Shown here: positions 3,867-29,584 of the stretch, in pieces | How the letters are laid out: every line of letters begins with the position of its first letter | How positions within the stretch are numbered: the stretch's first letter is position 1 | Source: Alphaproteobacteria bacterium | Lineage (GTDB): Bacteria > Pseudomonadota > Alphaproteobacteria > Rhodospirillales > Rhodospirillaceae | Length of the DNA: 44,870 nt | Assembly (NCBI GenBank): GCA_015233585.1 | Contig: JADFXL010000005.1 | Coordinates: forward strand, 1 to 44,870 | Reading direction: 5' to 3' | Translations under genes and position numbers: made by a program | The notes under the pieces: model-generated | Databases searched by the model: none | The model's input: only the letters and a program-made list of their open reading frames with translations | Told to the model about the DNA's origin: nothing

Positions 3867-4156
3867 TCGATGTCAACTGCCCAGGGCGTCGACGTAGTGG
3901 AATTCGACCGTCACCCCGAAATCCGCAGTGGCGCATTGACCAACTCGTCGGAAAGCTGCGGTTCGAGAGCGACGTTACGGGGGCTTGCCCGACCGGCTCG
4001 TTGCTGGCGCCACCGTCTGTCCGCACCACAGTTCCGAAAGCCGGCGCACCCGGAGCGCTGGCTATCAGCGGCAAATTCTGATACATTTCCAAAGACGGTG
4101 GTTGGTTTGCTCACAATTATAACGATTCCATCCGCATTTAAATCTGGATCAGTACT
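3867..4156. other. Spacer with a sharp change in base composition
   Basis: No gene is supported here. The first roughly 200 bases are GC-rich like the decarboxylase gene and hold only short unrecognised frames on both strands. From about 4075 the sequence becomes AT-rich and stays so through the next two genes, which marks a probable junction of DNA from different sources. No transposase remnant or terminator was recognised. Confidence 0.5.
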
Positions 4157-5347
4157 ATGGAGATAAACGAATTTAATAAAGCAAAGATTCCTTTCTCTCT
4201 TTCTGAATACGAAGAACGCTGGCACCGTGTTCGGTTAATGATGTCAGAGGAAAGAATTGATTTATTATTTGTTACCGGACCTGAAGGTATTTGTTATCTG
4301 CACGGGCATCAGGCTAATTGGTATCAGGGGAACTCGCCAAAGGAGTGGCCAGCTATTTCAGGGACAGCCATCCATGTCAATCACGATTCTCCTATACACT
4401 TTGATATTATAGATGAGATAAATCTTCTTAGACAATCTTCGATTCTTAAAGATATTCGCATTTACCCAACATTATCAATTGATTCGATTTTCTTTCTAAT
4501 CGGCGAACTTTCAGCCTTAGGCTGGTTAGGGGGGACCGTCGGATTAGAATTTTCCAATTACAGACCAAATCGGTCGATAAGCGAAACCATGGAACAGGCT
4601 TTTATTGCAGCGGGTAATCGCGTTGTAGATAGCAGTTCGATCATGCGAAAAGTACGGCGTATAAAATCGCCACAGGAAATTGCAATGATAGAACAGGCTT
4701 ATCGTATCGTTGATATAGGACACCATGCTTTACAAAAAAATCTGAGACCTGGTGTAACAGAATTAGATCTTGCGGCTGAAGTTAACTACGCAATGATGAA
4801 AGCTGGGGGGGAACAAGCTGCGCTTTTGTTATCCTTACAGTCAGGGCCTCTGGCATCGTTCCACGGGCTGCCTTCGCGGAGGATTATCTCCCAAGGCGAT
4901 TTGGTAACAATGGACCCCTGCGGTGTTGTGAATCGTTACCACGCTAACAGAGCGCGCGCTTATTATTTGGGTGATCCGGATAAGAAATTAATCTCATTGT
5001 ATGAGGCGGCTGGCGGCGCCTTTAATGTGTTGGTTGATAATGCAAAGAATTGCACGTCTGTTTCACACGTCAACAGAATTCTACGTACCTATTATGAAGA
5101 TAGCAATATCTGGCCGTTACGCGAGTGGGTCGGAGGCTATGAACTAGGTATCAGCTTTCCTCCTGACTGGGTAGGGGATTTTGTTTTTACCGTTGAAGAT
5201 GAAAATTCTGAAGACTATTTCCAGGCCGGAATGGTTACGAATTTTGAGAGTATTTTTGGTACATTTCTTATCGACACGGTTGTTTACGAAGAAAAGCAAG
5301 CTCGGATATTATCTGCTGATATGCCTCAGCTTATGGTAATTGATTAG
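4157..5347 (+). CDS. M24-family hydrolase resembling ectoine hydrolase/creatinase
   Basis: This is a 396-aa protein with the two-domain layout of M24 (pita-bread) enzymes: an N-terminal creatinase-type domain opening with SEYEERWHRVRLMM, and a C-terminal catalytic fold from about residue 165. The blocks FHGLPSRRIISQGDLVTMDP, NRYHANRARAYYLGDP and GYELGISFPPDW recall the ectoine hydrolase (DoeA/EutD) and creatinase branch. Canonical M24 metal ligands are mostly replaced: the Asp 11 residues after the first is Asn, the GHG histidine position is Tyr, and the last Glu position is Ile (FLIDTVV). This fits metal-independent C-N hydrolases of the creatinase/DoeA type rather than aminopeptidase P. DoeA opens ectoine to N-acetyl-diaminobutyrate, a suggestive link with the upstream genes. 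The gene is AT-rich compared with dat/ddc, suggesting separate acquisition. No clear ribosome site precedes the ATG. Confidence 0.72.
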   Translation: MEINEFNKAKIPFSLSEYEERWHRVRLMMSEERIDLLFVTGPEGICYLHGHQANWYQGNSPKEWPAISGTAIHVNHDSPIHFDIIDEINLLRQSSILKDIRIYPTLSIDSIFFLIGELSALGWLGGTVGLEFSNYRPNRSISETMEQAFIAAGNRVVDSSSIMRKVRRIKSPQEIAMIEQAYRIVDIGHHALQKNLRPGVTELDLAAEVNYAMMKAGGEQAALLLSLQSGPLASFHGLPSRRIISQGDLVTMDPCGVVNRYHANRARAYYLGDPDKKLISLYEAAGGAFNVLVDNAKNCTSVSHVNRILRTYYEDSNIWPLREWVGGYELGISFPPDWVGDFVFTVEDENSEDYFQAGMVTNFESIFGTFLIDTVVYEEKQARILSADMPQLMVID

Positions 5348-5366
5348 AACAAGGAGCCTAGAAAAT

Positions 5367-5999
5367 ATGACTTCTTCGTTCTGCAAAGTACCGACTAATC
5401 CAGAATTCAATTATCTAATTCGATCGGCTCACGCAGATGAACTGCCTCGATTGATTGAAATTGAGAAGGCGGCCCTGAATCTGTTTAAACAGACAGAACA
5501 CTTTGCGCTTGCAGACAATCCTACGCCTGATCCAATGATGTACCTGAGATTTTTGGACAAAGGAGCAATTTTTGTGGCCGTAGATAGCGAGGACAACATA
5601 GTCGGATTTGCACTGACAGAAGAAGTTGGGTGTCAAGGCTTTCTGAACGAGATATATGTACATCCTGCCCACGGAAGACAGGGACTTGGTCGCAGATTGG
5701 TTGATGCGGTAAAAATATGGTGCGACATGCGTGGGTACAACGAAGTCCGATTGACTACGTTTGTTAATGTTGCATGGAACGCTCCTTACTATGCTCGTCT
5801 TGGCTTCCAGCCACTCAAAGAAGACGAACTGAGTCCAGAACTGCTTGATGTGCGAAGAGACGAGGCGACGACGTGGGGAGTTGATATTACCAGAACCGTA
5901 TTTATGACACTTGTGATTCGTCAAAACATTATGAGTATCATAACTAAAGATAGACAGAAAGACAGCCAGAAGATTGTGATATTTTCTGTATTATCGTGA
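5367..5999 (+). CDS. GNAT-family N-acetyltransferase
   Basis: This is a 210-aa protein of the Gcn5-related acetyltransferase fold. The acetyl-CoA pyrophosphate-binding loop is seen as HPAHGRQGLGRRLVDAV (Q/R-x-x-G-x-G pattern) after the beta-4 strand FLNEIYV; the C-terminal YYARLGFQPL is the usual GNAT helix-strand ending. The start at ATG 5367 is fixed by AAGGAG at 5351-5356; an in-frame ATG at 5340 overlaps the upstream stop and is less likely. It follows the M24 gene by 19 bases, with the same AT-rich composition, so the two form an operon. The substrate is unknown; an amino group on diaminobutyrate, diaminopropane or a product of the hydrolase is a reasonable guess from context. The last ~25 residues, rich in Lys/Gln/Ile, lie outside the domain. 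Confidence 0.75.
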   Translation: MTSSFCKVPTNPEFNYLIRSAHADELPRLIEIEKAALNLFKQTEHFALADNPTPDPMMYLRFLDKGAIFVAVDSEDNIVGFALTEEVGCQGFLNEIYVHPAHGRQGLGRRLVDAVKIWCDMRGYNEVRLTTFVNVAWNAPYYARLGFQPLKEDELSPELLDVRRDEATTWGVDITRTVFMTLVIRQNIMSIITKDRQKDSQKIVIFSVLS

Positions 6000-6047
6000 G
6001 GATGGTGGTAGCGGCGAAGGGAAAGATCGACCATTTCCGGTGAATTC

Positions 6048-13866: not shown

Positions 13867-14583
13867 TCAAATTCGCTCCACGTTGGGAATGAACAGGTAG
13901 CCGACGCTGCGTAGCGTCTTGATAATCATCGGATCTTTGGCGTTGTCATTCAGTTTGCGGCGAATTTTCCCAATCGTTACGTCGATGGTGCGATCAAACG
14001 GTTCGCGATCGCCACTGGCGATATAGTCAAGAATCTGATCGCGCGAAATCGCACGCTGCGGCCTTTGGACCAGCACGGACAGAAGCTCGAATTCCTGGTG
14101 GGTCAGATACACACGCTCACCGGTGGGAGAGGTCAGTTCCCGACGTCCAAAATGCAGATCCCAGCCCAGGAAGCGGGCGATGGAGCCGGGTTCGGCGGGT
14201 TCCTTTACCGGTGTTGGGCTATTCCGGCTCCGGCGCAGGTTGGTGCGGATCCGGGCCAGGAGTTCGCGGCGGTCAAAGGGCTTGGTGATGTAGTCGTCGG
14301 CCCCGAGTTCGAGGCCGACGACCTTATCCACCGTATCACTCTTGCCGGTCAGAATAATCAACGGCACCAGGGACGTGGAACGTAAATTCCGCGCCAGACT
14401 GAAGCCATCCCCATCGGGCAAGAGCAGGTCAAGGATCACCAGATCGACCGACTCCCTGGCCAGGATCTGGCTCATTTCGGCACCGCTTCCGGCCGTAAGC
14501 ACGGCGTAGCCCTCCATCGTCAGGAAACGATCCATCAGCCGGCAGATTTCAGGATCGTCATCTACAATCAGAATACGTTCCAT
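13867..14583 (-). CDS. OmpR/PhoB-type response regulator
   Basis: This is 238 aa. The receiver domain (MERILIVDDDPEICRLMDRF, phospho-acceptor in LVILDLLLPDGDG, Lys in YITKPFDRREL) is joined to a winged-helix Trans_reg_C domain (VYLTHQEFELLSVLVQRPQR; DREPFDRTIDVTIGKIRRKL; IKTLRSVGYLF). Proteins of this type bind tandem half-sites about 10-11 bp apart as dimers. Just such an arrangement of TTACA repeats lies directly upstream at 14621-14655, suggesting autoregulation. No cognate membrane kinase of the simple EnvZ type is adjacent; partners may be the hybrid kinases of the island. It is divergent from the CheY-like gene at 14712. Confidence 0.93.
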   Translation of the reverse strand: MERILIVDDDPEICRLMDRFLTMEGYAVLTAGSGAEMSQILARESVDLVILDLLLPDGDGFSLARNLRSTSLVPLIILTGKSDTVDKVVGLELGADDYITKPFDRRELLARIRTNLRRSRNSPTPVKEPAEPGSIARFLGWDLHFGRRELTSPTGERVYLTHQEFELLSVLVQRPQRAISRDQILDYIASGDREPFDRTIDVTIGKIRRKLNDNAKDPMIIKTLRSVGYLFIPNVERI

Positions 14584-14620: not shown

Positions 14621-14655
14621 ATAATTACAAAACTTTACAATAGCGATCATATTTC
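14621..14655. promoter_or_regulatory. Candidate operator: TTACA half-sites ten bp apart, block shared with 15284-15318
   Basis: In the divergent spacer, TTACA occurs at 14625-14629 and 14635-14639, exactly 10 bp apart, followed by TCATATT at 14647-14653. The 35-base block resembles the one at 15284-15318 at about 26 of 35 positions, including an identical AACTTTACAAT core and the TCATATT tail. The spacing suits an OmpR/PhoB-type dimer, and the gene for such a regulator starts 37 bases away. Confidence 0.5.
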
Positions 14656-14711
14656 AGAGACAAGAATGCATCATCATGCTGGGTGAATTTCAGATTTGAG
14701 AGATCATCACG

Positions 14712-15245
14712 ATGGTGGGCTATAACATTGAACGGCTGAATTTCCTGATCGTTGACGATAACAAGCACATGCGGGCGTTGGTAAAGACCATTTTGCATTC
14801 GCTCGGGACAAGAAACGTGATCGAGGCGAACGACGGCGCCGACGCCCTCAGGGAATTGCGCAATTTTCCAGCCGATATCGTTATCTGTGACTGGAACATG
14901 TCGCCCCTGGATGGCCTTGATTTCACACGCCTAGTGCGAACCGGGAAGGATACCACCAACCCGTTTGTCCCCATCATCATGCTGACAGGCCATACCGAAT
15001 TTTCCCGCGTGGTCGAAGCTCGCGAAGCCGGCGTTCATGAATTTCTGGCCAAGCCCGTCTCGGTGAAGAGGTTGTTTACCCGTATCCGCTCGATCATCGA
15101 CACCCCGAGAACCTTCATTCGTGTGCCCAACTACTTCGGCCCGGACCGAAGGCGGAGCCGTAACGTTATTTTCAAGGGCAAGGAACGCCGCAGGATTGTT
15201 GCCGCGTCCCAGACGCAATTTGAAGAGGCGAGATCCGCCATGTGA
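14712..15245 (+). CDS. CheY-like single-receiver response regulator
   Basis: This is 177 aa with a receiver domain (LNFLIVDDNKHMRALVKTIL; phospho-acceptor in IVICDWNMSPLDG; switch Thr in IIMLTGH; Lys in FLAKPVS) followed by about 45 residues with no recognised DNA-binding or enzymatic domain, rich in Arg (FGPDRRRSRNVIFKGKERRR). Such proteins act by protein-protein contact or as phosphate shuttles. The DRRR/KERRR pattern in the tail recurs in the small protein at 19240 (QDRRMMGERRSPRERRKRF), a motif often seen in PilZ-neighbour or c-di-GMP-linked proteins, but no PilZ domain is evident. The start follows the shared operator block. Confidence 0.88.
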   Translation: MVGYNIERLNFLIVDDNKHMRALVKTILHSLGTRNVIEANDGADALRELRNFPADIVICDWNMSPLDGLDFTRLVRTGKDTTNPFVPIIMLTGHTEFSRVVEAREAGVHEFLAKPVSVKRLFTRIRSIIDTPRTFIRVPNYFGPDRRRSRNVIFKGKERRRIVAASQTQFEEARSAM

Positions 15246-15283
15246 TGGCCCTTCTTCCCTCGCACCAGGGCTCCAGCGTATCA

Positions 15284-15318
15284 AAAATAATATAACTTTA
15301 CAATGAGGGTCATATTCG
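15284..15318. promoter_or_regulatory. Second copy of the candidate OmpR-type operator block
   Basis: This block contains AACTTTACAAT (15294-15304) and TCATATT at the same offset as at 14621-14655. The upstream half-site is degenerate (AATATA instead of TTACAA). It lies 60-95 bases before the gene at 15378, downstream of the CheY-like gene. Confidence 0.45.
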
Positions 15319-15377
15319 GCTTACAGAACTCCGTCATGATGTCCCTGAAGCCGCCAAGGAAAAGGAGGTAGCAGGAC

Positions 15378-15731
15378 ATGCAAAAACCACAAGGACTGTC
15401 CGGCGATACGGGTCGTCTCAAAAACCGGGTGAATCACCAGCCGTGGTCAGGGTGCGGGACCGAGCCGGATCTTGAGGATGTCCTATCGGACCCGATCGTT
15501 CATATGGTCATGCGGCGCGACCTTCTTAGCCTTGAGGATGTGATGAAGGTCATCGTCGAAGCCCAGGCCAGACTGGCGGCGGCCGAGCACACTCTGCCGC
15601 TATGCCGTGTCGAGGATCTTGCGAATCTCCCGGGCCAGATCTCCCTTCGAGTAGGGTTTCAGCAATACCGTTATCTCGGCGCCAAGAATCTCGCGGGCGG
15701 CCAGGATCATGGACGACGAACCTGTGCATAG
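15378..15731 (+). CDS. Small hypothetical protein, 3' half antisense to the kinase gene
   Basis: This is 117 aa from ATG 15378, preceded by AAAGGAGG about 10 bases away, a strong ribosome site. Residues about 30-70 (DLEDVLSDPIVHMVMRRDLL, then DVMKVIVEAQARL) form an amphipathic helical unit of the kind seen in short conserved proteins of Rhodospirillales; I do not know its function. From base 15600 the frame runs antisense to the end of the hybrid kinase gene for 132 bases, and the predicted C-terminus looks like random sequence. Either the genes really overlap tail to tail, or a rearrangement removed the original 3' end and the frame reads into the kinase. The candidate operator at 15284 precedes it. 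Confidence 0.6.
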   Translation: MQKPQGLSGDTGRLKNRVNHQPWSGCGTEPDLEDVLSDPIVHMVMRRDLLSLEDVMKVIVEAQARLAAAEHTLPLCRVEDLANLPGQISLRVGFQQYRYLGAKNLAGGQDHGRRTCA

Positions 15732-18700
15732 CAAAATACCCAGGTGAGGCCATTGGCTCTTGACCTGCCGGGCCAGATCGATGCCCGTGCGCCCACCCGG
15801 CATCATGATATCGCTAAACAGGATGGCAACGGTGTCGCGGCCCCGAAGGATATCAAGGGCGGCATCGGCGCCCTCCGCCTCGATCACCGAATAACCGAGT
15901 CCTTCAAGGCAGCGGCGGGCAAACTTGCGTACCCTCATGTCGTCCTCCACCAGCAACACGATCTCACGGTGGCCGGTTTGCAGCGCAATGGCGATCTCGC
16001 TTGGCGCCGCCGCCTGGGTGGCGACGGGCAGGAGGAGCGTAACCGTGGTGCCGTGGTCAACTTCGCTTGAAAGACGGGTTGCGCCGCCCGACCGGCTGGT
16101 GAACTGGCTCACCATCCGCAGGCCAAGCCCGGTGCCCTTGCGTTTGGTGGTGAACAGGGGATCGAAGACCCGGTCCCGGATTTCCGGCGCAATGCCACAG
16201 CCGGTATCTTCAACGGCGATGGCGACATAGTGGCCGGGGGCCAGGTCCGTTACCCCTTCTTCCGTTACCCCTTGTTCTGGCGGGATCGTTATTTCGCGGG
16301 TGCGTATGGTCAGGGTGCCGCCGGTAACCATCGCGTCGCGCGCATTGAGCGCCAGATTGAGAATCGAGGTTCCGAAATGAGCGTCGTCGCATTGAGCGTG
16401 CGGCAGATTCACTTGCAGATCAAGACTGAGGTAGATGGATTCCCGCAGCGCGCGCTGCACCAGGGTACTCATGCGCAGGATCTGGCTGTTGACGTCAATC
16501 GGCTGTGAGGGCAGCGGCTCCTGGCGGGCAAAGGCCAGGAGACCCCGGGTCAGGTGGACGCCCTGTCCCACCGCCAACATCGCATCCCCAAGGATGTCGT
16601 TGATTTCCGACTCGTTCTCGTTGTTGGTGAAGTCGTCGAGGAGTTCGAGATTCCCCTTGATGACGGTAAGAAGATTGTTGAAATCATGGGCAACGCCGCT
16701 GGCCAACTGGCCGATGGCCTCCATCCTGCTGGCACGCAGCAACTCGGCTTCCGTCTTTTTACGTTCGGTGATATCGGTGGCGATACCAGCTACCGCCTGC
16801 GGCTGCCCGGTTTCGTCATGGAAGGGAAATTTGATGGTCATAAAGGTGATATGGGAGCCGTTGTCCATGGGCACGATCTCGTCGGTTTGCAGGGAACGGT
16901 TGTCATCAAGCACGGAACGGTCGTCGGCGCGGAAATGATCCGCCAATTCTTTCGGGAACAGATCGTAGTCGGTCTTGCCGACGATTTCGTCCATGGACAC
17001 ATGGAACAGGGTTTCATACTTGCGATTGATCAGCAGGTATTTCCCCTCCCGATCCTTAAGGAAGATGACCGCCGGGCTGTTGTCGAGGATGATACGCATC
17101 AACTTCTCGCTCCGCCGCAAGGCCGCTTCCGCCTTTTTGATTGAGGTGATGTCGGTGCGGATGGAGACGATGCCGCCGTCACGGGTACGGCGTTCGTTGA
17201 TCAGCATGACCCGTCCGTCGGTGAGGTGCTGTTCAAAGGAACCTTCGGCCCGGTGGTGGCTGTCGATTCGGGCGGCGATCCAGGCTTCCGGGTCGCCGTC
17301 GACCTGATAGTGGTTCTGGCTCATCCGTATTCGCAACGCATCTTCGAAACAGGTTCCGATGATGGTGTCGCTCCGGTCTCCATACGGCTCGCAATACTGA
17401 TTATTGCACAGAACCAGACGATCGTTGACATCCCACAGGGCGAGGCCGCCCTGGATGCTCTCAATGGCGTCCCGTAGCAGGAATTTGGCCCGTTCCAGGG
17501 CTTCGGCCTGACGCTTGCGCTCGGTGATGTCGCTGGCGTAGATGTGAACGCTGTTCTCGGGCGCGATGGCGCTGACATTCAGCCAGAAAATTTTATCCGC
17601 GATGGAATATTCGATATCGTGGGTACCCCCCAGATTATGGACTCGGTAGACGAGGCGCCGGATATCTTCCGGCACGATGCCGCCGACCCGGCAGGCCCAG
17701 AAATCCAGCAGAGGCTGGCCAGCCCGGTTGGCGTAAACAAGGGTGCCATCCATGGTAATACGGAAAACCGGATTGGGGTTGAGTTGCGGGAATACCGCAA
17801 GACTTTCGATCTTGTCCTTGGCCAGTTTGGCCTCGGTGATATCGCTCATGATGCCCCGATAGCCCAAAAAGCCGCCGCTTCCATCAAATACGGGCTTTCC
17901 ACCGATGGCCACATGAATTTCGGCCCCGTCGGCGAGGTGGATCAGGAACGGGACATCACGGAACGGACGATGGCCGGTAAGGTCGGCAAAAAAGCGCTCG
18001 CGATCCTTTGCGGATGTGGCTTGACGCAAAATTTCGTTCAGGTTTGTTTTGGCCAGAACATCGGCGATGATTTTGCCAAAGGTTTCCCTCCCCTCCGACA
18101 CATAAGTGAACCAAAGATCGGGGCCGCATTCCCACAGCCAGTCCGACATGGCTTCGGCCATGTCGCGCAGCCGCATCTCACTGTCGAGCCGGGCCTGTTC
18201 GGAGCGTTTGCGCTCTTCGATTTCGGCACGAAGCTGAAGGGTTCGTTCCTCGAATCGTTGTTCAAGCTGAATATGAAGCTGACGCAGCCGATTTTCGCTT
18301 TGCCGGAAGAGAGTAACGAAATAGGCCAGCACAACCAGATACGCCAGCATGGTTGCGATATGCCAGAACCACCACGTCGGCCCCCACCACAAGGCAAACA
18401 GGAACCTGAAGCAGGAAACGGCCATGATGCTACAGAAATAATAAAGTGCGAGGTCGCCATGATCCGCCGCACGGCGCCACATGCCCATGAAATAGCCTGC
18501 CGCCACGAGATAACCGAGACAGGCGACCAGATTCATGACACGCCCCACGGCGCCGACATGCGCCAGTTTGTGCCCGGACATCAGGATGACAAACAGCCCG
18601 CCGGCAATCAGCAATGTCATGGCGATTGCCAAAATCAGTGCCGAGCGGCGTGTCTTTCCGATTCTTGGCAGTCCCGTCGCGGCAAGAAGCACCCCGCCCA

Positions 18701-19046
18701 CCAGCCGGTTGCTATCGCCCAGAAACTGCGATGTCGGACCGGGCGGTACCGCGGCATGAAAAAGCTCCAGGGCGCCCATGGCGACAAGCGCTACCGCGAC
18801 ATGATCGTATTTCGGCGATAACCGGTCATAGCTTCGCAGCGTGACGATCACGGTGGCAAGGGTGATGGCGGTAAACGCTCCCAGGCTCTCCACAATGGCA
18901 TGAAGCGGCGGATACTCCCAGAGCCAGCCCGAAAATCCGTGGCGCAGGGCCAGCCCCCCCGCCAGAAGAAAAAGGGCGGGAGCGCCATACAATACGACGC
19001 TCCGCACCATTCCGGCGATCGTATTGAAATGGCGGAGGGATTGCAT
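15600..19046 (-). CDS. Multi-PAS hybrid histidine kinase with polytopic membrane sensor
   Basis: This is 1148 aa. The start at 19046 is fixed by AAGGAG nine bases upstream (MQSLRHFNTIAGMVRSVVLY); a longer frame to 19148 lacks this. Residues 1-270 hold about eight hydrophobic segments (for example YGAPALFLLAGGLALRHG, LILAIAMTLLIAGGLFVIL), an integral sensor like MASE-type domains. A coiled coil (QLEQRFEERTLQLRAEIEER) leads into four or five PAS domains, then HisKA with His787 in LASGVAHDFNNLLTVIKGN, an ATPase domain (GTGLGLRMVSQFTSRSGG), and a receiver with Asp1079 in AILFSDIMMPGGRTG. It stands alone on the minus strand with no downstream partner; its output could be the OmpR-type or CheY-like regulators close by. 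Confidence 0.92.
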   Translation of the reverse strand: MQSLRHFNTIAGMVRSVVLYGAPALFLLAGGLALRHGFSGWLWEYPPLHAIVESLGAFTAITLATVIVTLRSYDRLSPKYDHVAVALVAMGALELFHAAVPPGPTSQFLGDSNRLVGGVLLAATGLPRIGKTRRSALILAIAMTLLIAGGLFVILMSGHKLAHVGAVGRVMNLVACLGYLVAAGYFMGMWRRAADHGDLALYYFCSIMAVSCFRFLFALWWGPTWWFWHIATMLAYLVVLAYFVTLFRQSENRLRQLHIQLEQRFEERTLQLRAEIEERKRSEQARLDSEMRLRDMAEAMSDWLWECGPDLWFTYVSEGRETFGKIIADVLAKTNLNEILRQATSAKDRERFFADLTGHRPFRDVPFLIHLADGAEIHVAIGGKPVFDGSGGFLGYRGIMSDITEAKLAKDKIESLAVFPQLNPNPVFRITMDGTLVYANRAGQPLLDFWACRVGGIVPEDIRRLVYRVHNLGGTHDIEYSIADKIFWLNVSAIAPENSVHIYASDITERKRQAEALERAKFLLRDAIESIQGGLALWDVNDRLVLCNNQYCEPYGDRSDTIIGTCFEDALRIRMSQNHYQVDGDPEAWIAARIDSHHRAEGSFEQHLTDGRVMLINERRTRDGGIVSIRTDITSIKKAEAALRRSEKLMRIILDNSPAVIFLKDREGKYLLINRKYETLFHVSMDEIVGKTDYDLFPKELADHFRADDRSVLDDNRSLQTDEIVPMDNGSHITFMTIKFPFHDETGQPQAVAGIATDITERKKTEAELLRASRMEAIGQLASGVAHDFNNLLTVIKGNLELLDDFTNNENESEINDILGDAMLAVGQGVHLTRGLLAFARQEPLPSQPIDVNSQILRMSTLVQRALRESIYLSLDLQVNLPHAQCDDAHFGTSILNLALNARDAMVTGGTLTIRTREITIPPEQGVTEEGVTDLAPGHYVAIAVEDTGCGIAPEIRDRVFDPLFTTKRKGTGLGLRMVSQFTSRSGGATRLSSEVDHGTTVTLLLPVATQAAAPSEIAIALQTGHREIVLLVEDDMRVRKFARRCLEGLGYSVIEAEGADAALDILRGRDTVAILFSDIMMPGGRTGIDLARQVKSQWPHLGILLCTGSSSMILAAREILGAEITVLLKPYSKGDLAREIRKILDTA

Positions 19047-19239
19047 GATTTCACTCCTTGGAGGCTTCCCTGAATGACGGCGCATTGTACAACGTACAAC
19101 GAAGCGGGCAAGGGTCGGCCTTCTATCTATCCTGGCAGGGCGGCCCAAGGCGGAAATCGGTCGATATCACTTTAATATCCGACAAATTTAGTATACAATT
19201 CGGCCTGACAACAAGATCATTGGCGAGGAGGATCGTGTG

Positions 19240-19533
19240 ATGGAACAGCCGTACTGTGTTTCCGTCGAACGGCTCGACAATCAGGATCGTCGTATGATGG
19301 GCGAGCGGCGCAGCCCGAGAGAGCGCCGGAAACGATTCGGCCAATCCTGGCTGATCGAAATAACCCTAGAAAATGGACGGGAAATTGTTCAAAGTCGCTC
19401 CTTGCTCGATCGGCGCGGCCGGTTTGGCGGAATGGACCGGCGCAGCGAATATAGCCTGCAATCTGCTGATTCCAGGGGGGCACCACGTCCGAACGACCCG
19501 GATCGGGGATGGCAGGTCAATCTGGAAGCGTAA
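19240..19533 (+). CDS. Small Arg-rich hypothetical protein
   Basis: This is 97 aa from ATG 19240, with GAGGAG at 19225-19230; a GTG directly before it (19237) is an alternative start. The protein is strongly charged, with the clusters QDRRMMGERRSPRERRKRF and SLLDRRGRFGGMDRRSE flanking a short predicted strand (SWLIEITLENGREIVQ). It has no recognised family. It diverges from the hybrid kinase gene, and its Arg-rich signature resembles the tail of the CheY-like protein at 14712. Its stop codon lies inside a 17-bp tandem duplication. Confidence 0.55.
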   Translation: MEQPYCVSVERLDNQDRRMMGERRSPRERRKRFGQSWLIEITLENGREIVQSRSLLDRRGRFGGMDRRSEYSLQSADSRGAPRPNDPDRGWQVNLEA

Positions 19534-19555
19534 GCAGGCTGGAAGCGTAAGCAGG
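19522..19555. repeat. Perfect 17-bp tandem duplication across a stop codon
   Basis: CTGGAAGCGTAAGCAGG occurs at 19522-19538 and again at 19539-19555. The first copy contains the TAA that ends the small protein (LEA-stop), so the duplication lies just outside the coding sequence and looks recent. Confidence 0.9.
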
Positions 19556-19609
19556 GAACGGAACGATTATTACAGGGGTTGGCTGGGTTTCGTGAAATAG
19601 GGCGCCGAT

Positions 19610-19656
19610 TCCCGAACCCCGGATCGGGGGATACCCCCCGAACCCCTTTATTTTCG
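19610..19656. repeat. REP-like GC hairpin
   Basis: A run of C/G palindromic blocks (GAACCCC, CGGGGG-ATA-CCCCCCG, AACCCC) followed by TTTATTTTCGAGA forms a strong hairpin. The layout of C-runs followed by a T-run and GA resembles part of the palindromic insert in polA (39537-39616), so the two may be the same repeat family. It could also work as a terminator for the small gene ending at 19533. Confidence 0.45.
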
Positions 19657-19670
19657 AGAACGCGAATCGT

Positions 19671-19698
19671 AATTACAATCTGAATACAATTATTACAT
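19671..19698. promoter_or_regulatory. ATTACAAT-rich site upstream of the diguanylate cyclase
   Basis: TTACAAT (19673-19679), ATACAAT (19684-19690) and TTACAT (19693-19698) recur at about helical-turn spacing, with 20 bp between the first and third. This resembles, more loosely, the half-sites at 14625 and 15298, and lies about 85 bases before the cyclase gene. Confidence 0.35.
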
Positions 19699-19780
19699 CA
19701 TCCATACACAAATTGTCTGTACCCTGACGTGCAAAGGAGACGCCCAAACGGTCGCCTTTGAAAAGGACAGGAGGGTTAAC

Positions 19781-20779
19781 ATGGATAGTTGGGCAACTCA
19801 GACGGAGCTGATCGAACTTGCTCCACGCCGCCACACGATTCTTATCGTGGATGACGAACCCTCAAACATACGGGCTTTGGGCGAGATTCTAAAGGCTGAC
19901 TATCGGATTCTCGTTGCGCCGACCGGCCTTGAAGCCCTGCGCACGGTCGAGGCGACCATACCGGATCTGGTTCTGCTGGATATCATGATGCCGGTTATGG
20001 ACGGTTTTACCGTTTACCGTCATCTCAAGGAGAAACCGGAGTTCAACCATGTGCCGATCATCTTCGTAACCTCCAGCGCCGATATCGAGAACGAAACAAA
20101 AGCACTGGCGGACGGAGCGGTTGATTTCATCAGCAAGCCGCTCAGTCCGCCGGTGGTGCGGGCCAGGGTAAAGGTCCATCTCGCCTTGAAGGATCGCAAT
20201 GACGAACTGGTCCGCCTGGTCTCGGTCGACAGCCTGACCGGCATTGCCAACCGCCGGGCTTTCGACAACGCCTTGGCCATGGAATGGCAGCGGGCCTGGC
20301 GGGTCAGGGCGCCTCTGGTGATCGCCATGATCGACATCGACCATTTCAAGCTGTACAATGACTGTTATGGTCATCAGGCCGGGGATGAATGCTTACGTAT
20401 GGTTGCGGTGGCCCTGAAAGATCAGGCGAGCCGGGGCAGCGATGTGGTCGCCCGTTATGGCGGGGAGGAGTTTTCCGCAATCCTACCCGGGTGTTCCACC
20501 GACAATATGGCCGAACTGGCCGAGCGGATGCGGGCCAGCATTTCGGATCTTGCCATTCCTCATGCGGCCAGTCCCACCTCGGGCGTGGCCACCATCAGTA
20601 TCGGCATGGCCTGTCTGGCGCTTTCCTGTGACGGAACCGCTTACCCTCAGGCGGCCGAAGCGGCCCGGGCCGGGGCCAGCCGCTTGGTGAATTCGGCGGA
20701 TCAAGCCCTGTACCAGGCCAAGAAAATGGGCCGTAATTGTGCTGTCTGTGTGACGGAACCGATGGCTGACTTCAGGTGA
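19781..20779 (+). CDS. REC-GGDEF diguanylate cyclase (PleD/WspR-like)
   Basis: This is 332 aa with AGGAGGG upstream of ATG. An N-terminal receiver (HTILIVDDEPSNIRALGEIL, phospho-acceptor Asp67 in LLDIMMPVMDG, Lys in FISKPLS) is joined to a GGDEF domain that makes c-di-GMP from two GTP. The active-site loop is GGEEF (residues 227-231) and an inhibitory I-site RGSD lies exactly five residues before it, so the enzyme should be active and product-inhibited. The substrate-binding DIDHFKLYNDCYGHQAGDEC is intact. Phosphorylation would drive dimerisation and activity. The stop overlaps the GTG that could start the next gene, so the cyclase and the following kinase are one transcription unit. Confidence 0.95.
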   Translation: MDSWATQTELIELAPRRHTILIVDDEPSNIRALGEILKADYRILVAPTGLEALRTVEATIPDLVLLDIMMPVMDGFTVYRHLKEKPEFNHVPIIFVTSSADIENETKALADGAVDFISKPLSPPVVRARVKVHLALKDRNDELVRLVSVDSLTGIANRRAFDNALAMEWQRAWRVRAPLVIAMIDIDHFKLYNDCYGHQAGDECLRMVAVALKDQASRGSDVVARYGGEEFSAILPGCSTDNMAELAERMRASISDLAIPHAASPTSGVATISIGMACLALSCDGTAYPQAAEAARAGASRLVNSADQALYQAKKMGRNCAVCVTEPMADFR

Positions 20780-27323: not shown

Positions 27324-27974
27324 TCAGCTTTCGATCAGGTTGCTTTTGATGGCGTAGGAAGTCAGCTCGGCGGCGTTGTGAAGATCGAGCTTGCGCATGA
27401 GGTTGGCGCGGTGGTTCTCGACGGTCTTGACGCTGATGAAAAGCTGTTCGCTGATTTGCCGATTGCGAAAGCCTTCGGCCACCAGCTTGATGATTTGACG
27501 TTCCCGCGCGGTCAAGGTATTGCCTGCGGTCTCTCGATCTTCGGAATCTCCGATATAACGGTTGACATCCGCCTCGGAGATGCCCTCCGAAAAGTAACGC
27601 CCACCCGCCAGAACGGTGCGGATGGCCAGGAGAAGGCCGACGCGGTCAATCTGTTTCAGGGTATAGCCGTCGGCTCCGGCGCGCATCGCTTCTGCAATTT
27701 TCTGTTCGGAGTCCGATACGGTCAGAACCAGAATGCGGACTTGCGGCCAGCGCTGCTTGATTTCACGGGTGGCGTCGACGCCGCTCATCCTGGGCATGGA
27801 CAAATCCATGAGAACGATATCTGGCAGCAGGGAGGCCACCATGCGTATCGTTTCGACCCCGTCCTCCGCTTCGCCGACAACCTCTACATCTGGCTCAGAA
27901 GCCAGCAACGCGCGCAGTCCAGCGCGGATCAACCGCTGATCTTCGGCTATTAGTATCCGTACCGACATGCTCAT
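27324..27974 (-). CDS. NarL/FixJ-type response regulator downstream of rpoN
   Basis: This is 216 aa from ATG 27974; ATG 27968 is equally likely, and longer in-frame starts to 28079 precede the receiver with unrelated sequence and overlap rpoN. The receiver is VRILIAEDQRLIRAGLRALL with phospho-acceptor in DIVLMDLSMPRMSG and a YTLKQ switch region; the DNA-binding part is LTARERQIIKLVAEGFRNRQ then ISEQLFISVKTVENHRANLM. No ribosome site is evident. It follows rpoN on the same strand after about 100 bases. In many alphaproteobacteria the hpf and ptsN genes occupy this place, so the regulator is an unusual neighbour. Confidence 0.9.
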   Translation of the reverse strand: MSMSVRILIAEDQRLIRAGLRALLASEPDVEVVGEAEDGVETIRMVASLLPDIVLMDLSMPRMSGVDATREIKQRWPQVRILVLTVSDSEQKIAEAMRAGADGYTLKQIDRVGLLLAIRTVLAGGRYFSEGISEADVNRYIGDSEDRETAGNTLTARERQIIKLVAEGFRNRQISEQLFISVKTVENHRANLMRKLDLHNAAELTSYAIKSNLIES

Positions 27975-28075
27975 TGAAGGTGCCAAGTTGTCATTCTGAC
28001 AAAAATTTCCAAATATTACAGCAGCCATTTTGCCTTCCGCTACCACCGCCGTCAAGTTAAATCCCTTAACACGGA

Positions 28076-29584
28076 TCAATTTTTGGGCGTGCGCATGGAT
28101 TTTTCTTGTCTTCGCTGTGCCGACGAGGGAATTCTCATCGCTTCTCGATATTTTGCCACTGTTCGCCGCGCAATTTCGATTCCACCAGCTTTAAGCAACT
28201 TCACGATCGTCTCATCGCTGAGAATGTCCGAGGGACGCTCCTGGTCAACCAGCTCCTTGATGCGGTGGCGAACCGCTTCCGCCGAGTGGGCGTCGGCGCC
28301 ATCCGTTGCAGCAATAGCCTGGGTGAAGAAATACTTCAGCTCATAGATGCCCCTGGGTGTCGCCATGTACTTGTTGGAGGTGACACGGCTGACGGTACTT
28401 TCATGCATTTCGATCGCCGAGGCGATGTCGCGCAACACCAGCGGCCGCAGGTGGGACACGCCACGAGCGAAAAAAGCATCCTGCTGGCGCACGATTTCAC
28501 TCGCGACCTTGAGAATCGTGGTGGCACGCTGGTGCAGGGACTTGACCAGCCAGTTGGCCGACTGGAGGTTCTCGGCCAGATAGTTCCGATCCTCCTTGGA
28601 CTGGGTCGCCTTGCTGATCTTGGTGAAGTATCTGGTGTCAATCAGCAGCCTCGGCAACGTTTCCGAATTGAGTTCAATGATCCAGCCCCCATCGGAACTG
28701 GTGCGCATCAGAACGTCGGGCGTGATGGGAGTCGCGATAGCATGATCGAAGGCCAGAGCTGGTTTGGGATTGAGCGCGCGGATTTCATGCACCATGTCGG
28801 CCAGATCTTCGGCATCGACCCCGCATATCTGCATCAACGACTTCATATCCCGTTTGGCCAGCAGGTCCAGACGGCCGAGCAGCGCTTGCATGGCCGGATC
28901 CAGCCGGTTGCGGTCCTTAAGCTGGAGAGCCAGGCATTCCCTGAGGGTGCGGGCGCAAATGCCGGGCGGATCAAACGCCTGGAGCAGCCGCAGCACCGAC
29001 TCCACGCGCGATACCTCGCAGTTGAGCACCCGCGCCACTTCGGCCAGACTTTCGGTGATCCAGCCGGCATCATCGACCAGATCAATCAGATAAAGGCCAA
29101 TGATCCGGTCGCCAGGATCATGGATATCGACGTTGAGCTGGGCCACCATATGCTCGCGCAATGAGGGTGCCGCTTCCCGCACCTGTTCATAATCCGAATT
29201 GGGGTCCTCGAAATCGGAACGGCCGCCCTGTCCGCTCCAGTTGGCAAGCGACATGTCGCTGAACTCGGGAGCGTCGCCCGGCGTATCGCTGGACCAGGAA
29301 TTATCGTAGTCGATGTCCAGCGGGGTTTCATCCTGACCGGCGATCTTGTCCAGAACCGGCTCGTCCCGGTCCCGGCGCTCTTCCCCTAGCGTCTCTTCGG
29401 CATCCCCGATTCCATCCTCGCGGCGATCGTCCCGCTCCAGCAACGGATTGCGCTCCAATTCCGCATCCACATACGCCGAAAGTTCCAGATTGGTAAGTTG
29501 CAGCAGCTTGATCGCCTGCTGAAGCTGCGGCGTCATGACGAGAGATTGGGACTGGCGCAGGTCGAGGCGTGCGGTCAAGGCCAT
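28076..29584 (-). CDS. rpoN: RNA polymerase sigma-54 factor
   Basis: This is 502 aa, full length. Region I is the Gln/Leu-rich QSQSLVMTPQLQQAIKLLQL; an acidic region II follows (about residues 50-110); region III ends with the core-binding and HTH parts, and the RpoN box is present as ARRTVAKYREAMRIPSSAQRR without its first residue. It directs transcription from -24/-12 promoters with enhancer-binding activators. It starts 11 bases after lptB, in the conserved kdsD-lptC-lptA-lptB-rpoN order. The C-terminus ends shortly after the box, as normal. Confidence 0.97.
   Translation of the reverse strand: MALTARLDLRQSQSLVMTPQLQQAIKLLQLTNLELSAYVDAELERNPLLERDDRREDGIGDAEETLGEERRDRDEPVLDKIAGQDETPLDIDYDNSWSSDTPGDAPEFSDMSLANWSGQGGRSDFEDPNSDYEQVREAAPSLREHMVAQLNVDIHDPGDRIIGLYLIDLVDDAGWITESLAEVARVLNCEVSRVESVLRLLQAFDPPGICARTLRECLALQLKDRNRLDPAMQALLGRLDLLAKRDMKSLMQICGVDAEDLADMVHEIRALNPKPALAFDHAIATPITPDVLMRTSSDGGWIIELNSETLPRLLIDTRYFTKISKATQSKEDRNYLAENLQSANWLVKSLHQRATTILKVASEIVRQQDAFFARGVSHLRPLVLRDIASAIEMHESTVSRVTSNKYMATPRGIYELKYFFTQAIAATDGADAHSAEAVRHRIKELVDQERPSDILSDETIVKLLKAGGIEIARRTVAKYREAMRIPSSAQRRQEKSMRTPKN

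Follow-up and report, generated by a model that had tools for sequence, protein, structure and literature searches.

What controls the genes around an OmpR-type response regulator that sits in a cluster of signalling genes, and how far does any such control extend? The locus that raises this question lies in a stretch of 44,870 nucleotides (hereafter the window), corresponding to contig C391 in a 3.33 Mb MAG from the Rhodospirillales (435 contigs, 80% complete, 59% GC). An earlier note, made from the DNA letters, had proposed a three-site local regulon: two matching sequence blocks, one between the regulator and a CheY-like gene and one before the gene at 15378, together with a looser array before a diguanylate cyclase. 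The features concerned are collected in Table 1.

Table 1. Genes and candidate sites at the locus (window coordinates)
Feature	Position	Strand	Description	Basis
OmpR-family response regulator	13867..14583	-	REC + Trans_reg_C, 238 aa	Pfam
Half-site tandem TTACA-N5-TTACA	14625..14639	+	Candidate OmpR-type self-operator in divergent promoter	Sequence, shuffles
Block 1, AACTTTACAAT-N5-TCATATT	14631..14653	+		Exact match search
CheY-like single-domain receiver	14712..15245	+	177 aa, FGPDRRR tail	Pfam
Block 2, AACTTTACAAT-N5-TCATATT	15294..15316	+	Candidate second operator, no second TTACA	
Small protein gene	15378..15731	+	Strong Shine-Dalgarno AAGGAGG	
Hybrid PAS kinase gene	15600 to about 19048	-		
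Third array, TACA x4	19674..19708	+		Sequence, shuffles
REC-GGDEF diguanylate cyclase	19781..20779	+	Downstream of third array	Pfam

Two matching blocks and a half-site tandem

The matching pair of blocks is real. As the earlier note had observed, the 35-base segments 14621-14655 and 15284-15318 resemble each other closely, agreeing at 25 of 35 bases, and the shared core and TCATATT do recur at the same distance: both elements are identical in the two copies, at an offset of 663, with TTACAAT and TCATATT starting 12 bp apart in each. No other two intergenic regions in the window match as well as this pair, and no match to the frame of 18 fixed positions was obtained in shuffled windows. Further genomic hits, which the earlier note had made one of its criteria, did not appear: at up to three mismatches, the 3.3 Mb of the MAG hold no copy of the frame beyond blocks 1 and 2, and near matches to TTTAC-N9-CATATT elsewhere in it fall mostly inside genes. 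Across 59 genomes of the family, the frame is found at two to three mismatches about as often as its reversed control, mostly in AT-rich genomes.

Block 1 is distinguished by a tandem of half-sites, which reads TGTAA-N5-TGTAA towards the regulator gene. Such a pattern arises in 3 of 20,000 shuffles of the regulator's own intergenic region. The 10-bp spacing of half-sites that had been ascribed to the sites in general is confined to 14625-14639; block 2 contains a single TTACA and the third array follows a different spacing. In the genome as a whole TTACA-N5-TTACA is not enriched; at up to one mismatch it occurs only 17 times, whereas the reversed control occurs 68 times, and we therefore rejected it as a genome-wide regulon motif. 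The sole other exact copy in the MAG (C409:11108) lies within an open reading frame and looks like a chance occurrence.

An OmpR-type operator at block 1 is the most likely single explanation of these observations, which we put forward tentatively, at somewhat under an even chance. Block 1 would then be a candidate OmpR-family site in a promoter region common to the regulator gene and the divergent cheY gene; a regulator dimer would occupy both TTACA half-sites, on the same face of the helix, and, once bound, would control both its own gene and cheY. From its identity to block 1, and hence with less force, block 2 is probably a related operator, which the same or a sister OmpR-type regulator may read before the gene at 15378. 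If true, this would link an OmpR-type regulator to a CheY-like protein about which little is known and to a small protein conserved in Rhodospirillales.

We may also hypothesize that the blocks are related promoter/operator regions, each combining a core promoter with the site of another factor, or the remains of a diverged promoter duplication, and that the neighbouring regulator does not bind them; we consider this rather unlikely. It would account for the nearly equal distances that separate the blocks from the two start codons (81 and 84 bases), for a weak likeness that, with the offset unchanged, persists some 30 bases further downstream, and for the lack of a tandem half-site in block 2 and of a match to the boxes of relatives described below. 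Moreover, TACAAT has five of the six bases of a sigma-70 -10 element and forms the end, at 14641, of a weak promoter match. However, promoter-like matches are near shuffle level (5 versus 3.3), with no such match reported for block 2, and on the former ground a sigma-70 promoter was rejected as the sole explanation. The spacer within the blocks also argues for the operator: four of its five positions differ between the copies while its length is kept, a pattern more in keeping with protein binding than with recent copying. Finally, the rarity of the tandem among shuffles makes its presence in the regulator's own promoter improbable by chance.

Known operators and boxes of homologous regulators

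The arrangement is one of ordinary local bacterial gene control, and the kind of system is already known. One close parallel is the K-box of FxkR in Rhizobium, GTTACA-N4-GTTACA, a single copy of which can serve a divergent regulator/target pair (PMC4999443, PMC7888657). It is an alphaproteobacterial OmpR-type box, and the candidate box in block 1 shares with it the 10-bp distance of the half-sites and a place flanked by a regulator gene and its divergent neighbour; however, the leading G is missing from both half-sites of block 1, which retains only TTACA in each, block 2 has one half-site, and no fixK or hFixL link is seen at the window locus. OmpR sites, 20 bp long, are made up of two 10-bp sub-elements, and ompR is subject to autoregulation (PMC3050692). 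Here the AT-rich tandem sites of ompF/ompR, the putative autoregulation and the best NCBIfam model are points of likeness, whereas the score of the window regulator against that model is a point of difference (see below). KdpE binds half-sites TTTATA and TTTACA with 5 bp between them (PMC3264566); its TTTACA-type direct half-sites and near-helical spacing recall block 1, but the window regulator fits the KdpE model far worse than the OmpR model (1e-36 versus 1e-63). CenR of Rhodobacter, another OmpR-family protein of the Alphaproteobacteria, likewise binds a direct repeat, TGA-N8-TGA, whose halves are roughly one turn of the helix apart (PMC9275681). The half-site sequence differs, and the CenR motif was rejected as the identity of our sites. 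In a post hoc comparison, the E. coli ompF upstream sequence TTTACTTTTGGTTACATATT, which we take to be the F1 OmpR site, matches 12 of 15 shared fixed positions in a 20-bp span; as composition-shuffled patterns match this upstream region equally well in 3.4% of cases, the resemblance is only a lead.

We analyzed 78 upstream regions of regulator homologues, leaving aside the window and the nearest paralogue in its own genome. Direct repeats of the form GTWAC-N5-GTWAC, with a 10-bp period, occur in the regulators' own upstream DNA in 26 of the 78, against a shuffle mean of 0.02 and maximum of 1, and in none of 55 CheY upstreams. TTACA-N5-TTACA is present in 12 of the 78 (0.05 expected). Spacings of N3, N4 and N7 yield no case and N6 two, which sets the period of the boxes at 10 bp. 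De novo motif search in these upstreams, by expectation maximization (EM) to which no motif was supplied, returned a motif of 20.5 bits over 22 columns, written tGTTACAcTCtGTTACA or tGTTACAcTCtGTTACAaaTTT. Many main-clade members have two boxes upstream of the start codon, at about 88 and 60 bases from it and 28 bp apart. Box presence clusters on the homologue tree (10 changes versus 26.6 in shuffles), and the clade that holds most box-bearing members leaves the window regulator outside. Judged by their sequence, these putative boxes are of the known OmpR/FxkR type.

A by-product of this comparison is thus a set of Rhodospirillales-wide OmpR-type regulators with strongly conserved, often double, candidate self-operators, which provide a usable matrix for predicting OmpR-type regulons in the order. 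Double tandem GTWAC boxes, a conserved double candidate self-operator, are listed for 13 order-wide OmpR-type regulator loci.

When the relatives' matrix is run over the window (about 90,000 positions), the block 1 tandem ranks 168, block 2 297 and the third array 81, and there are higher-scoring positions inside genes. The matrix singles out none of the three sites, and we rejected it as support for them. The low ranks reflect the absence of the conserved G from each half-site and of the tandem from block 2. Although its matrix rank is low, block 1 has the geometry and the position in the regulator's own promoter that would be expected, and is a plausible candidate for a diverged self-operator.

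The regulator as a divergent paralogue

An OmpR-type regulator does adjoin the first block, as the earlier note had stated: Pfam identifies a Response_reg domain (1.7e-29) followed by a Trans_reg_C winged helix (1.2e-22), the domain order of the OmpR/PhoB family. Its best NCBIfam model is OmpR (1e-63), with 214.9 bits against a cut-off of 331, so that it is not OmpR proper in the equivalog sense; members of the order-wide clade are likewise under this cut-off, at 277-282 bits. No homologue found in the order or class exceeds 51% identity to it. In a tree of 80 homologues, the regulator's long branch falls outside the main clade, beside a sister group, and the order-wide OmpR clade (PHILVVDDDR type) does not include it; its exact place is unsure because the branch is long. 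No histidine kinase gene is found directly beside the regulator gene.

The recognition helix reads IDVTIGKIRRK, compared with IDVQVSRLRRK or similar in most relatives, and the T and K at the two unusual positions occur in no other row of the aligned homologues. By PhoB/OmpR numbering we take both to be base-contact positions, which makes an altered DNA-binding specificity plausible. By alignment and tree, the regulator is a lineage-specific paralogue that has diverged and whose recognition helix is altered. One may speculate further that this OmpR paralogue, with its changed helix, moved its box from GTTACA to TTTACA/ATTACA half-sites and so insulated from the ancestral OmpR regulon a small local circuit made up of the CheY-like protein, the small conserved protein and possibly the diguanylate cyclase; specificity would in this way have changed at the DNA level after duplication. 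This scenario is unlikely as it stands; if true, it would offer a natural case of paralogues that have diverged in both box and recognition helix.

The proposed regulon and its neighbourhood

The array before the diguanylate cyclase is non-random: its four TACA elements start at 19674, 19685, 19694 and 19705, that is, at spacings of 11, 9 and 11 bp, while no chain of three or more arises in 5000 shuffles. Read from 19673, it forms two 20-bp units, TTACA-N6-ATACA-N4-TTACA-N6-ATACA. The looser array previously proposed here therefore exists, but it lacks the block common to 14631-14653 and 15294-15316 and is a different motif. No other copy is present in the MAG at up to two mismatches, and the pattern is absent upstream of five homologues of the diguanylate cyclase (50-53% identity), so that conservation at these genes was rejected.

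That one OmpR-type regulator runs all three sites, diguanylate cyclase included, as a local regulon is in our estimate decidedly unlikely. The regulator gene adjoins the first site, and the non-random third array has the near-helical spacing and two 20-bp units expected of OmpR-type dimers; yet the absence of the shared block, the 11/9/11 spacing, the lack of any such array at the five homologues and the lack of enrichment in the genome all argue against it. Nor is the full block conserved upstream of some 60 CheY orthologues, where the best case matches 11 of 18 positions, a background level, compared with 18 in the window. The exact blocks are thus not kept at the CheY-like or diguanylate cyclase genes of relatives from outside the genus, and the three-site regulon is left unsupported, with two block copies only. 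Membership of the diguanylate cyclase array in the same regulon is doubtful, and to treat the array as a regulon member at all is speculative. Mere coincidence, in which AT-rich intergenic DNA of a 59% GC genome would generate look-alike blocks, is very improbable: the pair's lenient ungapped score is equalled in 6 of 200 runs when all intergenic regions of the window are shuffled, but in none of 400 when the two regions alone are, and the 18 fixed positions recur neither in shuffles nor elsewhere in 3.3 Mb.

The CheY-like protein has relatives 70-78% identical across the order and is a paralogue of the CheY conserved order-wide; the same MAG holds a second CheY copy (C244:11266-11766). In locus L173 (contig C244, 1611-2827), this second, order-typical CheY stands in tandem with another CheY-like gene. 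The small protein, conserved over a stretch of about residues 15-70, has relatives in 67 of 148 genomes, and its gene overlaps the convergent hybrid PAS kinase gene at the 3' end. Comparison of the relatives' loci revealed no synteny between the small gene and cheY; a conserved unit of the two was rejected, the small gene being a stand-alone family.

Several other features of the window were recorded. A direct repeat, TTGTACAACGTACAACG, is located at 19085-19101, upstream of the hybrid kinase gene. A 98-aa protein (19237-19533) without a Pfam match contains repeated DRR/ERR motifs similar to the tail (FGPDRRR and GKERRR) of the CheY-like protein. At 27324-29584 (minus strand), a NarL-type response regulator gene lies directly downstream of rpoN and overlaps its end. 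Lastly, a low-GC patch at 4001-6000 (44% versus about 59%) spans an M24 peptidase and a GNAT acetyltransferase.
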